From Gammaproteobacteria bacterium (GTDB lineage: Bacteria > Pseudomonadota > Gammaproteobacteria > Xanthomonadales > SZUA-36), in contig JAJRYF010000037.1 of the NCBI GenBank assembly GCA_024275935.1, positions 1-64,000 on the forward strand: DNA of 64,000 nt. The letters are read 5' to 3'. Positions 18,421 through 25,226 of this stretch are shown here, one piece after another (position 1 is the stretch's first letter; each line of letters starts with the position of its first letter). The notes beneath the pieces are model-generated. The model searched no databases. It had not been told where the DNA came from and saw nothing but the letters and a program-made list of their open reading frames with translations. Position numbers and translations under genes: made by a program.

Positions 18421-19700
18421 ATGGCTCTCAAACCCGTAGAATCGCCGTCATTGGTGGTAGCCGAATTCCTTTCTGCCGCTCCAATTCTTTTTATGCTGAT
18501 AGTACCAACCTGGATATGCTGGCAGCCGCTATTGATGGGGTAGTCAAAAAGTTCAAACTCGAAGGAGTGCAGCTTGATGAAGTAGTGGCAGGTGCCGTAA
18601 CCACGCACTCCAAGGACTGGAACCTTGCCCGCGAAGCACTGCAGTCAACCGGCTTATCTCCACTTACTCCGGGCATTACCATGCAACAAGCTTGCGGTAC
18701 CGGCTTGCAGGCAGCCTTGATATCTGGCGCAAAAATAGCCAGCGGCCAAATTGAATCAGCAATTATAGGGGGTACCGATACCACCTCGGATGCACCAATA
18801 GTATTTTCGCGTAAATTCTCACAACGCTTGATTGCCCTGGGACGAGCTAGAAACTTCAAAGCCAAAGCTGCAGCTTTTAAAGGCTTCAGCTTCGCTGAGC
18901 TTGCGCCCCAACCGCCCTCTAATAACGAGACCAGAACTGGTTTCTCTATGGGGCAACACTGCGAGCGTATGGCCAGAGAGTGGAAAATCGGTCGTGAAGA
19001 TCAGGACCGTCTGGCAATGGAAAGCCACCAAAAAGCGGCTGCCGCTTATGCCGCAGGCTTCTTTGACCAGTTAATAGTGCCGTTTGCCGGAGTCACCAGA
19101 GATAACAACCTGCGCGCCGATAGCACCATGGAAAAACTCGCACAACTGCGTACCGTATTTGACCGCAGCCCTAATGGCACGCTTACCGCTGGTAATAGCA
19201 CCCCGTTAACTGATGGCTCATCAGCAGTGCTACTGGCTTCAGAGGACTGGGCCAAGCAACAAGACTTACCGATTCAGGCTTATCTGACCTATGGTCGTAC
19301 TGCCGCTGTCGATTATGTTAACGATGAAGGTTTGCTAATGGCACCAGCGGTAGCGGTTTCTGAAATGCTAACCATGGCTAATTTAGAACTACAGGATTTT
19401 GATTTTTATGAAATCCATGAAGCCTTTGCCGCCCAAGTGCTTTGTACTTTAAAAGCTTGGGAGTCAGAAGACTATTGCCGCAACCGCCTGGGTAGAAAAA
19501 CTGCGATGGGTGCGATTGATCCGGCAAAATTAAATGTCAACGGTAGTTCACTTGCGGTTGGACACCCATTTGCTGCAACTGGTGGCCGGATTATTGCAAC
19601 TCTGGGGCAGATTCTTGAACAAGCAGGTTCTGGTCGCGGACTAATTTCTATTTGTACCGCTGGTGGCATGGGTGTAACTGCAATTATGGAACGGTCTTAA
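18417..19700 (+). CDS. FadI-like acetyl-CoA acyltransferase (thiolase)
   Basis: A 427-residue thiolase that cleaves 3-oxoacyl-CoA. The nucleophilic Cys is in MQQACGTGLQAALIS near residue 94, the catalytic His in EIHEAFAAQVL near 330 and GHPFAATGGR near 385, and the second Cys in ICTAGGMG near the end. Length and the CGTG variant match the FadI group better than FadA (about 390). It overlaps its bifunctional partner by four bases, and its stop codon shares a base with the next start (TAATG). Confidence 0.93.
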   Translation: MNGSQTRRIAVIGGSRIPFCRSNSFYADSTNLDMLAAAIDGVVKKFKLEGVQLDEVVAGAVTTHSKDWNLAREALQSTGLSPLTPGITMQQACGTGLQAALISGAKIASGQIESAIIGGTDTTSDAPIVFSRKFSQRLIALGRARNFKAKAAAFKGFSFAELAPQPPSNNETRTGFSMGQHCERMAREWKIGREDQDRLAMESHQKAAAAYAAGFFDQLIVPFAGVTRDNNLRADSTMEKLAQLRTVFDRSPNGTLTAGNSTPLTDGSSAVLLASEDWAKQQDLPIQAYLTYGRTAAVDYVNDEGLLMAPAVAVSEMLTMANLELQDFDFYEIHEAFAAQVLCTLKAWESEDYCRNRLGRKTAMGAIDPAKLNVNGSSLAVGHPFAATGGRIIATLGQILEQAGSGRGLISICTAGGMGVTAIMERS

Positions 19701-20575
19701 TGCTACTTATTCCGCAAACAACATCAGGACTAATAATTGACCCTCAGCAAACCGCCCTGAGCACGGCTGATTTGAAAACTGAATTTGCAGACCCGGGAAA
19801 TACTGACGATAACGAGCGCCAATTAAAAAGCGTGCGCAAGCAGATGCGCCCGTTGTTATCGCGCTTACAGGCAAGCCAGTCACATTCGGTGCTATTGATT
19901 TTTCAGGCTCTCGATGCCGCTGGCAAAGACAGCATGATCCGATCAATTTTTTCCGGTCTGGATCCGGCAATCACTAAACTTGCGGCCTTTAAAGCACCTA
20001 GCGAACTTGAGCGCCGTCATGACTTTCTCTGGCGGACCAGCAAACAATTACCAGCGCGTGGTGAATTAGGTATATTTAATCGCAGCTATTACGAAGAAGT
20101 TTTAGTTGTCAGGGTGCATCCGAATTTCCTCAATGGGCAATATCCGCAGGGGATTGACAACCCTTCCGAACTCTGGCCACTACGCTATGAGGCCATTAAT
20201 GCGCACGAAAAGCAGCTTGCTGCAACTGGCACCCTAGTGCTTAAATTCTGGCTAAATGTGTCGGTTTCAGAGCAGAGAAAGCGCTTTCTGTCACGCCTTG
20301 AGCGGCCAAAGAAGCGCTGGAAATTCAACCCCAATGATGTCCGGGAAATGGCCTACAGAAAAGCCTATGACGAGGCTTTTCTGGAAATGGTAAATACCAC
20401 CTCAACCGAGTATGCGCCCTGGTTCATGATTCCAGCTAATGACAAACCCAGAGCGAGACTTGAGGTAGGTAAAATTATCTTACAAGCGCTAGATGGCATG
20501 GGGCTTGAATACCCAGAACTAGACCCCGAAATAAATGCTGAAGTTGCCCAATGGCAACAGCAACTTAAAGCGTAA
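19700..20575 (+). CDS. Polyphosphate kinase 2 family protein
   Basis: A 291-residue PPK2-family kinase, which transfers phosphate between polyphosphate and nucleotides. The Walker A-like LDAAGKDS is at residues 71-78, the Walker B-like IFNRSYYEEV at 125-134, and the basic lid (RKRFLSRLERPKKRWKF) near 195. A longer frame opens at 19652, but the ATG at 19700, sharing a base with the thiolase stop, gives the natural start and implies coupling. PPK2 next to beta-oxidation genes is unusual; it could make ADP or ATP from AMP released by acyl-CoA synthetase, but that is inference. Substrate class cannot be assigned from sequence alone. Confidence 0.9.
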   Translation: MLLIPQTTSGLIIDPQQTALSTADLKTEFADPGNTDDNERQLKSVRKQMRPLLSRLQASQSHSVLLIFQALDAAGKDSMIRSIFSGLDPAITKLAAFKAPSELERRHDFLWRTSKQLPARGELGIFNRSYYEEVLVVRVHPNFLNGQYPQGIDNPSELWPLRYEAINAHEKQLAATGTLVLKFWLNVSVSEQRKRFLSRLERPKKRWKFNPNDVREMAYRKAYDEAFLEMVNTTSTEYAPWFMIPANDKPRARLEVGKIILQALDGMGLEYPELDPEINAEVAQWQQQLKA

Positions 20576-21181: not shown

Positions 21182-22045
21182 TCAACCTAGAAAATCCACT
21201 CTGATTCCGGCTGCCTCAGCAGTATTCTGCATTAAAGTGGCTACCGTCATTGGCCCTACGCCACCGGGGACTGGACTAATCCAGGTAGCCACACTTGAGG
21301 CTAACGAAAAATCTATATCGCCAACCAGGCTGCCATCTGCTTGGCGGTTAATGCCAACATCCACCACTACAGCGCCTGGTCTAATCCATTCGGAATTAAC
21401 AACCCCTTGTTTGCCAACGGCAACTACCAGTAATTCTGCGCGACGAATATGCGCTTCCAAGTTTCGGGTGAAACGATGGGTAGTAGTCACAGTTGCACCG
21501 CGATAAAGCAGTTCCAAGCTCATGGGCCGACCAACTATATTTGAAGCCCCAACTACAGTTGCATCAATGCCCTTGGTATCAATAGCGTAATAATCCAGCA
21601 AAGTCATAACGCCTCTGGGGGTGCATGGGCGCAAACCCGGTTGGCGTAAAGCCAGCGAACCTACATTGGCGATATGGAAGCCGTCAACATCCTTGTAGCG
21701 GGACACACTATTGGTAATTTTAATTTCATCGATATGCTCAGGCAACGGCAGTTGCACCAAAATACCGCTTACTTCAGCATCTTGATTTAGTTTATTTATA
21801 AGCGCCAGCAAATCTTCTTCAGTGGTGTCTACAGGCAGGTCGTAATCTTTGCTAATAATGCCAGCCCGCTCACACGCCAGGCGCTTGTTGCGCACATAAA
21901 TTCTGGACGCGGCATTCTCCCCGACCAGCAGCACAGCTAATGAAGGTGGCTTACCACCAGACAAAAGATATTTATCAATACTGCTTTTAACTGCATCAAT
22001 CAATTTCTGACTAACCAGCTTGCCATCTAGAATTTGCGCACTCAT
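21182..22045 (-). CDS. folD: Methylenetetrahydrofolate dehydrogenase / cyclohydrolase
   Basis: A 287-residue bifunctional folate enzyme interconverting methylene-, methenyl- and formyl-tetrahydrofolate. The substrate Tyr and catalytic Lys are in IYVRNKR near residues 50-55, the [11 protein letters not shown] block is near 95, the NADP site [11 protein letters not shown] near 165 and the C-terminal [10 protein letters not shown] near 262. Length is standard. It is transcribed alone, convergent with the acyltransferase and divergent from the peroxidase-like gene. Confidence 0.97.
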
Positions 22046-22092
22046 AGTATTCCTCGATAACCAGAGGATTATTTTACCCTGACAACAAGAGG

Positions 22093-22122
22093 TTGTGGAT
22101 TTTTTTATAAACTTGCTATACT
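22093..22122 (+). promoter_or_regulatory. Possible promoter of the peroxidase-like gene
   Basis: TTGTGG at 22093-22098 and TATACT at 22117-22122, spaced by 18 bases, lie about 60 bases before the ATG at 22184. A GAGG ribosome site is at 22173-22176. Confidence 0.4.
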
Positions 22123-22183
22123 AATTACTGAATATTCTCGAGTTGTTTATGTTTTTCAGCAAATATTCACTGAGGCAAGCCAT

Positions 22184-22672
22184 ATGAATGTTTTTGAACA
22201 TAATTTTCTCAGCTTACAAAATGCCCCACTATCTCTGAGTCGTTTTCAGGGGCAGCCCATCTTGGTTGTTAACACTGCCACACAATCTAGCCATGTAAGC
22301 CAATTGACTGCAATGCAAAAACTCTGGAATGACTATAAAAACTCTGGTTTAGTTGTATTGGCAGTCCCTTGTAGTGATTTCTCTGAACGAGAACCAGATG
22401 ACGAAACTGCGATTCAGGCCTTTCTTGATGAGCATTACCTGATTAGTTTTCCGATGACTAGAAAAGAGTCTGTACGCGGCAGATTTGCACACCCTTTGTT
22501 TCATCAAGTAGCAGAAGAATTAGGCCATGATTATCTACCCAGCGGGAATTTCAGCAAAATACTATTTGATTCTCGGGGTGGTTTTGCGAACCTGTGGAAA
22601 ACTAATGTTATCCCGACCGACCTGAAAATAACTCACGCGATTGAATCGAATCTGCAAAGTTGGATACTATAA
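22184..22672 (+). CDS. Glutathione peroxidase-like protein lacking the catalytic cysteine
   Basis: A 162-residue thioredoxin-fold protein with clear glutathione peroxidase layout: the first strand ILVVNTAT near residue 26, then the GLVVLAVPCSDF strand near 55, and the NFSKILFDSRG segment near 125. The family motif NVASxCG is replaced by NTATQSS, so the peroxidatic Cys/Sec position is Ser35. The Gln of the usual catalytic tetrad (CNQF) is also replaced (CSDF). It therefore probably is not a standard peroxidase; a binding, chaperone or regulatory role is possible but unproven. Cys59 remains. The frame is intact, with a good ribosome site, which argues against simple decay. It is divergent from folD. 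Confidence 0.75.
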   Translation: MNVFEHNFLSLQNAPLSLSRFQGQPILVVNTATQSSHVSQLTAMQKLWNDYKNSGLVVLAVPCSDFSEREPDDETAIQAFLDEHYLISFPMTRKESVRGRFAHPLFHQVAEELGHDYLPSGNFSKILFDSRGGFANLWKTNVIPTDLKITHAIESNLQSWIL

Positions 22673-22683
22673 CTCAGTAAGTT

Positions 22684-23802
22684 CTATGCGTATTTTCGAC
22701 AACTACAACCTACCTCGGCTTGTAGTTTGGTTTTTCGGAATCCAGCACTCAAGGCATCATAACTGAGCAAAGCCCCAGTCAGCGGCTCGCCAATACCTAG
22801 CAACACTTTTAGCGCTTCTGTGGCCTGCAATGTGCCGATGACCCCCGGCAACACACCCAAGACCCCAACATCACTGCAAGTTGGCGGTTCGCTAACGCCA
22901 TTATCGACAAACAAGCAACGATAACAAGCTGATAGCTCGCCACTAGCGTCACGGTAGTTAAATACTGCAACCTGCCCTTGAAAGCGAAATACCGCTCCGT
23001 ATACCAGAGTGACGGCGTGCTTTACACAGGCATCATTGACGCAGTATCTGGTTGCTAGGTTGTCTGAACCATCCACTACCAAGTCATAGCCAGCAATTAA
23101 CTCATCTACATTGCTATCATCCAGGCGCAAATTGTGCGCATGAATATTGATTGCCGGGTTAAGGCTACGCAAACGGTAGCGGGCAGACTCTATTTTGGAA
23201 ACGCCAATATGCGCTTCATCGTGAATTATCTGCCGCTGTAAGTTAGATCTATCAACGACATCATCATCAACTATCCCTAGACTACCAACACCAGCTGCAG
23301 CCAAATATAGCGCTACTGGAGAACCCAACCCCCCGGCTCCAATAATCAAAACTTTAGACTGCAGCAATTTTTCCTGACCCTGATCGGAAATCTCCGGGAT
23401 TACTAAATGCCTGGCATACCTTGCCCGTGCGTCGCTGCCAAGTTGGATTGGGGTATCAGACGGCAATGCAGCGACTTTCCAGGCGCTATAACCACCGCTT
23501 ACGCTGACAACATTAGTATAGCCCAAACGGTGTAAATCATCAGCTGCAAACAGCGAGCAAACTCCGCTATCACAGAGTGTGATAATCGCTTGATCAGGAT
23601 CTGGCAACTGTTTTTCAAGCATTACTTCAAGGAAGCTGCGTGACAAACGCAGAGCACCTGCCGGGCTGCCCTGCTCGACACTTCCAGGCTCCCGCACATC
23701 AATCAACGCGGAGCCTTGCTGTTGTCGTGCATATGCCTCATGCGGTGATATCTGGGGGATATTGGCGCGGATTATCTCTAGCCGTTGTTGTTTCAAACTC
23801 AT
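22684..23802 (-). CDS. moeB: Rhodanese-MoeB/ThiF fusion, sulfur-carrier adenylyltransferase
   Basis: A 372-residue two-domain protein. Residues about 15-120 form a rhodanese domain with an active-site loop starting at Cys in LCDSGVCS. From about residue 125 an E1-like adenylylation domain follows, with the ATP motif GAGGLGSPVALYLAAAGVG, the RxxxQRQ-type segment (DRSNLQRQIIH), the zinc cysteines (CYRC and CSC) and the conserved Cys in PTCSDVGVLG. Such proteins activate a small sulfur carrier (MoaD or ThiS) and can pass sulfur to it, serving molybdopterin, thiamine or thiolated tRNA. The fused order here is rhodanese first, opposite to MOCS3/Uba4. Its ATG overlaps the der stop by four bases. 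Confidence 0.87.
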   Translation of the reverse strand: MSLKQQRLEIIRANIPQISPHEAYARQQQGSALIDVREPGSVEQGSPAGALRLSRSFLEVMLEKQLPDPDQAIITLCDSGVCSLFAADDLHRLGYTNVVSVSGGYSAWKVAALPSDTPIQLGSDARARYARHLVIPEISDQGQEKLLQSKVLIIGAGGLGSPVALYLAAAGVGSLGIVDDDVVDRSNLQRQIIHDEAHIGVSKIESARYRLRSLNPAINIHAHNLRLDDSNVDELIAGYDLVVDGSDNLATRYCVNDACVKHAVTLVYGAVFRFQGQVAVFNYRDASGELSACYRCLFVDNGVSEPPTCSDVGVLGVLPGVIGTLQATEALKVLLGIGEPLTGALLSYDALSAGFRKTKLQAEVGCSCRKYA

Positions 23803-25226
23803 TTTTTAGCCTTACGTTTACGACTACTTGGTCTTCTTTGTGAGTTAAATCGCTTAACTTTCTTATCACCCTGATCCGCGCTGCTAGATTTAGACTTATT
23901 ACCGCTATAGGGGTTTTTTCCTTCTCTGAATTCAATTTTCAAAGGAGTGCCTTTGATCTTAAATACAGTGCGAATTTTATTACTAATATAACGCTGGTAA
24001 TCAGGGGTGATTGTGCTTACCCGGCTTCCATGAATTATAATTCTAGGCGGAAAGCGCCCGCCGCTATGCGCGAACCGTAACTTAGCGGTTCGCCCGTGCT
24101 TCATTGCTGGCTGGTGTGCTTCCCAGGCTCTGCGTACAACCTCAGTAAGTCTAGTAGTAGTCATCTCCATACCAGCAGAGTCCCAGGCTTCATTTACCGC
24201 CCGCATCAACTCACGCAATCCACTGCCGTGCAGCGCAGAAAGTGTTACCCGGCGTGCAAATTCAGCATAAGTGAGCTTGCGCTCAAGTTCAGATTTAAGT
24301 CGTTTACGCTGTTCATCGCCGATGCTGTCCCATTTGTTAATTGTTATAACCAGGCCTCTGCCATGATTGAGAATATGCCCCAGCAAAGTCGCATCCTGAT
24401 CTGTAAGGCCTTCTTCAGCATCCAGCATAAGCACTACCACCTGGGACTTGATAATTGCCTGCAGGGCCTTTATTACGCTAAATTTTTCAACCGCATCTTT
24501 AATGCTGCGCCGCCTTCTGATACCGGCAGTATCAAACAGCAGATACTTTCTGCCATCGCGTTCTAGCTCTACCTCAATTGTATCGCGGGTAGTTCCTGGT
24601 AAATCAAAGGCCAGCACCCGCTCTTCACCAAGCAGTCGGTTAACCAGAGTTGATTTCCCAACATTAGGGCGCCCAAGTATGGCCAGCCTGATTACATCGC
24701 CAGCAGGTTCTTCGTCATTATTTTCTGTGGTTACTACTGGTAGCAGGCTAAACACCCGCTCCATCAATTCCTCAAGCCCGCCCCTGTGCGCGGCTGAGAC
24801 ACCAAGCGGTTCACCCAATGCGAGTGCCGCAAACTCCGGTACCGAAAACATAGTGTCGGTACCATCTGTTTTATTAACAACTAACTGCACCGGCTTGCCA
24901 GTTAAACGCAGCATTTGGGTGATTTCTTCATCCGCTGATAGTACTCCATCACGCGCAGAGACCACAAACAGCACCAAGTCTGCTTCGACTATTGCCAACT
25001 TCACTTGTTGAGCGGTAAGGTAATCGATGCCGACCGCATCATCAACCAGACCACCAGTGTCTATCAACATAAAGTGATCTTCACCAAACTCGCCGGTGCC
25101 GTATTGACGATCACGCGTAACCCCTGGCATATCTGCTACCAACGCATCCCGACTTCGGGTTAGGACATTGAATAATGTGGATTTACCGACATTAGGTCGG
25201 CCAACAATTGCGATTACGGGAAGCAT
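23799..25226 (-). CDS. der: Ribosome biogenesis GTPase Der (EngA)
   Basis: A 475-residue GTPase with two G domains in tandem, needed for 50S subunit assembly. The two P-loops GRPNVGKST are near residues 8 and 189, with DxxG motifs (LIDTGG, LFDTAG) and NKxD motifs (VVNKTDG, TINKWDS). The KH-like C-terminal domain ends in a Lys/Arg/Ser-rich tail. It follows bamB as in E. coli, but with a 200-base spacer holding hairpins. Confidence 0.97.
   Translation of the reverse strand: MLPVIAIVGRPNVGKSTLFNVLTRSRDALVADMPGVTRDRQYGTGEFGEDHFMLIDTGGLVDDAVGIDYLTAQQVKLAIVEADLVLFVVSARDGVLSADEEITQMLRLTGKPVQLVVNKTDGTDTMFSVPEFAALALGEPLGVSAAHRGGLEELMERVFSLLPVVTTENNDEEPAGDVIRLAILGRPNVGKSTLVNRLLGEERVLAFDLPGTTRDTIEVELERDGRKYLLFDTAGIRRRRSIKDAVEKFSVIKALQAIIKSQVVVLMLDAEEGLTDQDATLLGHILNHGRGLVITINKWDSIGDEQRKRLKSELERKLTYAEFARRVTLSALHGSGLRELMRAVNEAWDSAGMEMTTTRLTEVVRRAWEAHQPAMKHGRTAKLRFAHSGGRFPPRIIIHGSRVSTITPDYQRYISNKIRTVFKIKGTPLKIEFREGKNPYSGNKSKSSSADQGDKKVKRFNSQRRPSSRKRKAKK

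Follow-up and report, generated by a model that had tools for sequence, protein, structure and literature searches.

A glutathione peroxidase family gene that appears to have lost its peroxidatic cysteine repeatedly at one syntenic locus in Gammaproteobacteria

Introduction

What does a glutathione peroxidase (GPx) family gene encode once the peroxidatic Cys is missing from an otherwise intact frame? The survey reported in PMC10084747, which used about 2,000 sequences from bacterial isolates, gives the peroxidatic Cys, Trp and Asn as 100% conserved, the catalytic Gln as 95% and the resolving Cys as 94%. The window analysed here, a stretch of 64,000 nucleotides from contig JAJRYF010000037.1 (assembly GCA_024275935.1), carries a gene of this family with Ser at the peroxidatic position. 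An earlier sequence-only reading of the window had pointed out this Ser and suggested that the protein may have acquired a different function. In the following sections, we will describe the window gene, follow its orthologues through two bacterial families of the same order, designated f1 (the window's own) and f9, and weigh what the loss of the Cys may have led to. Genomes of the comparison are given by G numbers.

The window gene and its catalytic positions

The gene extends from 22184 to 22672 on the + strand, encoding 162 residues in a frame that is intact, as the sequence-only reading had stated. The ribosome site noted at the same time is plausible, GAGG being present at 22172–22175 (+), 8 nt upstream of the ATG. 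The promoter described as good is not supported, since a sigma-70 scan of 22000–22720 returned two sites against 1.9 in shuffled sequences, and the single site on the + strand ends at 22048, about 135 nt upstream of the ATG.

The encoded protein matches the PF00255 (GSHPx) family model with 72.5 bits (cut-off 27), and this is the sole match above cut-off in the whole assembly (2.42 Mb, 155 contigs). Its AlphaFold2 model has the GPx fold (pLDDT 93.2), and the nearest solved chain is that of human GPX7 (2p31; Z 25.3, rmsd 1.4, 154 aligned residues, 30% identity). The model of a more divergent Cys-less relative, G044, behaves similarly (pLDDT 95.2; best Z 24.8, rmsd 1.5, 156 aligned residues), and five Cys-less relatives that were scanned scored 70.8 to 101.6 bits against PF00255, all above the cut-off.

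The segment that usually reads NxASxCG is NTATQSS in the window protein (residues 30–36; 22271–22291, +), and alignment places Ser35, encoded by TCT at 22286–22288 (+), at the position of the peroxidatic Cys, in agreement with the earlier reading. Three further changes had been overlooked. According to PMC10084747, the catalytic tetrad consists of Cys61, Gln95, Trp150 and Asn151, with Glu96-Pro97-Gly98 directly following Gln95, so that the catalytic Gln corresponds to the Q of the QEPG motif and not to that of CNQF. By this numbering, Arg69 (CGA, 22388–22390, +) occupies the position of the catalytic Gln. By alignment, Leu81 (CTT, 22424–22426, +) takes the place of the resolving Cys, Gly121 (GGG, 22544–22546, +) that of the catalytic Trp, and Asn122 (AAT, 22547–22549, +) is the sole catalytic residue retained. 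The enzyme's Cys, Gln, Trp and Asn thus read Ser35, Arg69, Gly121 and Asn122.

The sequence-only reading had also remarked on CSDF standing in place of the usual CNQF. The CSDF segment is indeed there (residues 63–66; 22370–22381, +), but it is not diagnostic, as Asp65 is normal for the subfamily: an Asp stands at the third position of this segment in 35 of 35 Cys-bearing orthologues and, among the matches listed, in 73 of 78 named homologues. An interpretation of Asp65 as the replacement of the lost catalytic Gln was rejected because Asp is usual there and the tetrad numbering points to the Gln of QEPG.

With regard to classification, the family-model match and the predicted GPx variant of the thioredoxin fold place the protein in the GPx family by descent. 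Considered as an enzyme of this family, it has neither the Cys or Sec nor the Gln and Trp, and keeps the Asn; considered as a thioredoxin-dependent GPx, it has Leu81 instead of the resolving Cys. Judged on these residues, the window protein belongs to the GPx family in ancestry and fold but lacks three of the four catalytic residues, and the name "glutathione peroxidase" should not be applied to it.

Orthologues at a shared locus

In the window, the gene lies between folD, its divergent neighbour (21182–22045, −; PF02882 208.8 bits, PF00763 128.5 bits), and a convergent gene coding for a ThiF/rhodanese protein (22684–23802, −; PF00899 257.8 bits, PF00581 53.5 bits), which is followed by a gene for a der/EngA-type GTPase (23799–25226, −; PF01926 187.1 bits, PF14714 73.4 bits). 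Farther off, a polyphosphate kinase 2 is encoded at 19652–20575 (+; PF03976 206.6 bits), between thiolase and acyltransferase-like genes, and a relative was matched in only some of the gpx loci compared.

Orthologues were drawn from searches of relatives, of the family and of the order, and from fetched loci. Residue 35 could be read in 55 of them, 31 from f1 and 24 from f9, a count in which the broken G003 gene is represented by its first part and from which the copy of G014, cut by a contig end and showing Cys, is omitted. The neighbourhood was likewise compared in 55 loci, here with G014 and without G003. On one side, folD adjoins gpx in 52 of them (exceptions G020, G023 and G018), and on the other side a der or ThiF/rhodanese gene lies within 1.6 kb in 53 (exceptions G034 and the contig-end copy of G014). 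This shared position marks the gpx copies of f1 and f9 as orthologues rather than scattered paralogues.

Residue 35 is Cys in 35 of the 55 orthologues, Ser in 18, Ala in one (G111) and Leu in one (G119). The earlier reading had named a lack of orthologues sharing the Ser as a refutation; with 18 such orthologues, it is not refuted in this way. In f1, it is present in all four genomes of the window's genus and in G006, G013, G021, G016 and G022; in f9, it is carried by nine members of one clade, whose tenth member is the Ala-bearing G111. The Ser codons that were read differ as well. Within the window's genus, the window has TCT, and G001, G002 and G003 have TCC, TCG and TCC, respectively; TCN is also used in G016, and AGY is found in G013, G021, G022, G006 and G044.

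Of 78 named homologues, from which L040 and L041 were left out as their contigs have the same lengths as those of G002 and G033, 77 show Cys among the matches listed, the remaining row not spanning the site. In class-wide samples, the Ser form of the motif, searched as a DNA pattern, was found in the window only (TCN 1/369, AGY 0/369), and the Cys form matched in 24 of 114 genomes; these samples comprise one f1 genome and no f9 genome, and divergent forms escape an exact pattern. The order search covered 398 genomes, 331 of which gave matches at 1e-40, and residues were read there for the f1 and f9 orthologues, the f1 paralogues and a few further rows.

A second GPx might be thought to make the Cys of the first dispensable. 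A second GPx match is present in G006, G016 and G022, but absent in the window genome, G001, G002, G013 and G021, and redundancy was rejected as a general cause of the loss on account of these five genomes.

How often the cysteine was lost

On a tree built from FolD, Der and BamB of 56 genomes, the 20 Cys-less orthologues need six changes, all six being forced by starred branches; G018 is misplaced in this tree, its FolD row seeming to be a wrong pick, as no folD adjoins the G018 gpx. The six lineages are the window's genus, G006, G013/G021, G016/G022, the f9 clade of ten, and G119. The gpx tree alone (49 rows) needs four changes, and an AU test on it does not reject a single Ser clade (p 0.21 with 10 rows, 0.34 with 8 rows). 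The count of six losses hence rests on the neighbour-gene tree, on which a single origin of Ser was rejected, even though the gpx tree taken alone is compatible with it. Regain of the Cys in some lineages may also be conceived.

Five of the six losses led to Ser, if the Ala of G111 is taken as derived within its Ser clade. With the single-base neighbours of TGY codons as the null, the chance of at least five Ser outcomes in six is 0.009 under uniform change and 0.003 when transitions are doubled.

Residues lost along with the cysteine

The other catalytic positions differ between the two groups of orthologues. Gln69 is retained in 33 of 35 Cys-bearing proteins versus 2 of 20 Cys-less ones, Trp121 in 33 of 35 versus 8 of 20, and Asn122 in 35 of 35 versus 10 of 20. 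The resolving Cys81 is less constant among the Cys-bearing proteins themselves, being present in 22 Cys rows (missing in 13) versus 2 of the 20 Cys-less rows. The ten proteins of the Cys-less f9 clade retain none of the four catalytic residues. A paired test of co-loss over six independent pairs was not significant, Gln69 changing the same way in 4.3 of 6 pairs and in the opposite direction in none (median p 0.125); no independent pair ran in the opposite direction.

Several proteins show only part of these changes. In G119 (L170, 4049–4534), Leu replaces the peroxidatic Cys, and Gly36, Thr38, Gln69, Trp and Asn are retained; this may be a more recent loss. In two f9 proteins, those of G123 and G210 (L172 and L173), the peroxidatic Cys is kept, Cys-Glu and Cys-Gln replacing the usual Cys-Gly, but neither the resolving Cys nor the catalytic Trp remains (RTNF for RWNF). 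They may represent half-way forms.

Rate of change, selection and possible decay

The most serious alternative to a retained function, one that we regard as possible but rather unlikely, is that the Cys-less genes are decaying remnants, in which function went with the Cys and the intact frames are leftovers, above all in the window's genus. Rates of change bear on it directly. They were expressed by dividing the gpx branch length by that of the neighbour genes, both fitted to one topology, for 53 of the 56 genomes (G018, G003 and G014 dropped). This ratio is 0.81 for Cys branches and 1.21 for Cys-less branches after the loss, and all six stems on which the loss occurred are sped up (1.78, 2.69, 2.10, 2.51, 9.17 and 2.33), as decay would have it. 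Per branch, the median is 1.21 for all Cys-less branches (30) versus 0.73 for Cys branches (68), with P 0.002. Speed-up also occurs outside the losses, 7 of the 68 Cys branches reaching at least 1.78, with a maximum of 3.67.

The window's genus supplies further points in favour of decay. Two of its four copies, those of G003 and G001, are damaged, versus none of the 35 Cys copies, and the catalytic Gln and Trp have gone too in the window lineage. The gpx gene of G003 is interrupted by an insertion of about 161 bp (L120, 879–1039, contig C101) with terminal inverted repeats, resembling a small, non-autonomous mobile element; downstream of it, the frame is broken a second time by a stop codon. 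In G001 (L152), the usual in-frame start codon is absent, and the earliest one available is internal to the gene. For this pair of genomes, the first part of the gene gives a dN/dS of 0.247 and the second part one of 0.086; for G001 and G002, the value is 0.039, at a dS of 2.34. The window gene itself, with its nearest relatives 58–59% identical, is too distant for such estimates. Elsewhere in f1, some genomes, such as G028, G031 and G061, have no gpx match at all. However, the neighbour-gene tree places G001 and G003 as sisters, and one of the two assemblies is 60% complete, so the damage may in part be an assembly fault or a recent local loss.

Against decay as a general account stands the state of the remaining copies. 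Of the 20 Cys-less copies, 18 begin at an ordinary start codon and have an open frame, as do all 35 Cys copies, these at full length; the ten-member f9 clade keeps its frame without any of the four catalytic residues, and the predicted model of G044 keeps the fold. Five intact Ser pairs gave dN/dS values (NG86) of 0.014, 0.099, 0.059, 0.077 and 0.066, compared with 0.038–0.077 for Cys pairs and 0.029–0.112 for folD and der in those compared pairs that gave values; several dS values are saturated, and the Cys range stands for six of eight pairs, two having no NG86 dS. As the Ser pairs resemble the Cys pairs, these Cys-less proteins appear constrained about as tightly as the enzymes. Retention under selection is thus well supported for G013/G021 and the f9 clade, from which close intact pairs are available. 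For the window's genus, G006, G016/G022 and G119, it is tentative, and in the window's own genus gpx may be decaying.

What the Cys-less proteins may do

We consider it probable, without being assured of it, that a GPx has here repeatedly been converted to a non-peroxidase protein, a pseudoperoxidase, kept for another role. The ancestral copy at the old syntenic locus would have been a Cys-type GPx, whose peroxidatic Cys was, on the neighbour-gene tree, replaced in at least six lineages, the window's genus included, five times by Ser. The catalytic Gln was usually lost with the Cys, and the resolving Cys and Trp often; fast protein change at the loss would have given way to purifying selection again in most lineages. 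Judging by the residues that remain, peroxidase activity would be gone, and the new function would be independent of thiol chemistry. The retained role would most likely involve a partner or ligand already bound by the ancestral enzyme in the old active-site cleft. The window protein probably has a different function, as the earlier reading had surmised, although in its genus the gene may be decaying.

Thioredoxin may be named as a candidate partner. The residues that PMC10084747 describes for thioredoxin recognition, Pro97, Phe106 and Tyr111, correspond to P71, F80 and Y85 of the window protein (via the numbering of Gln95 and Cys107), and it is the presence of all three that brings thioredoxin into consideration. 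F80 is not retained in G006, G013, G021, G016, G022 and G228, and its loss in several Cys-less lineages makes thioredoxin a weak candidate. With regard to peroxide defence, the window genome encodes a glutathione synthetase and has ten AhpC-TSA matches above cut-off, so this defence need not depend on the window gpx.

A bolder form of this proposal, which we put forward as speculative and on balance doubtful, is that the locus has repeatedly given rise to a non-redox protein with one shared function, new or formerly hidden, for instance that of a thioredoxin- or ligand-binding regulator, and that loss of peroxidase activity was favoured in parallel. The change from Cys to Ser, with Gln69 and the neighbours of the site changing alongside, would then reflect this common pressure. 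Under either form of the proposal, the Ser itself does not seem to be required, since Ala (G111) and Leu (G119) also stand at the site.

This last observation weighs equally on the idea of a chemistry that depends on the Ser, whose hydroxyl would activate a bound thiol by analogy with kappa-class glutathione transferases, in which a Ser at the place of the N-terminal Cys of CxxC appears critical according to an atlas of the thioredoxin fold (PMC2757866). The preponderance of Ser (five of six losses), the predicted retention of the GPx fold and the glutathione synthetase of the genome would suit such a mechanism, but the Ala and Leu forms speak against an essential Ser, the residue following it is variable, and we hold the idea to be improbable.

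It is still harder to credit that the protein remains a peroxidase through Cys63 acting in place of the lost Cys. The sequence-only reading had named such a stand-in as the finding that would overturn it, and none was found: Cys63 is the only Cys of the window protein, and although it occurs there and in 16 of the 20 Cys-less copies, it is absent in the other four, three of them within the window's genus. It is, moreover, found at a similar frequency in Cys copies (27 of 35) and forms part of the ordinary PCNxF segment, and the Gln and Trp are lost too. Finally, a sequencing or assembly error in the window can practically be dismissed, for although a single base separates Ser from Cys codons and the assembly is in 155 contigs, the sister genomes refute it, all four members of the genus having Ser, encoded by TCT, TCC, TCG and TCC, and further catalytic positions are changed as well.

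Comparison with known GPx proteins and significance

Compared with bacterial thioredoxin-dependent GPx-like peroxidases (PF00255), the window protein shares the fold, the length and core residues (Asn-x-Ala, Pro, Glu-Pro and Phe-x-Lys), and occupies the same locus as its Cys-bearing orthologues; of the conserved residues that the PMC10084747 survey lists, it keeps only the Asn. Human GPX7, its nearest structural neighbour, is described as a Cys peroxidase of the endoplasmic reticulum (PMC9925728), and the window protein is without that Cys. A Ser in the place of Cys is compatible with the fold in the S. aureus GPx C36S variant (9kzm, Z 24.1), in which C36 is taken as the peroxidatic Cys from its number; that protein is a laboratory mutant, whereas the Ser35 protein is natural. 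In searches of the open-access literature, we recognised no description of a GPx with a naturally occurring Ser at this site, which does not prove that there is none.

The nearest parallel to the proposed pseudoperoxidase is mammalian GPX6. According to PMC10958145, its Sec was replaced by Cys on five independent occasions, the protein evolved faster where this happened, and classic peroxidase activity is lacking; a synthetic Ser form of the mouse protein is called redox inactive there. In both cases, a single orthologous GPx gave up its catalytic residue repeatedly, and its rate of change rose when it did so. They differ in the outcome, since Sec gave way to Cys in GPX6, whereas Cys gave way to Ser, Ala or Leu in the bacterial gpx, leaving no redox residue at the site.

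A Cys reported as 100% conserved (PMC10084747) has thus apparently been lost at least six times at one syntenic gene, and the Cys-less proteins were mostly kept under selection. For annotation, caution is advised: each of the six Cys-less proteins that were scanned scores above the GSHPx cut-off and would be labelled a peroxidase. For the biology of the family, the gpx locus offers natural replicates of one loss, with Cys-bearing sisters as controls, by which the role of the GPx fold apart from peroxide reduction becomes testable.
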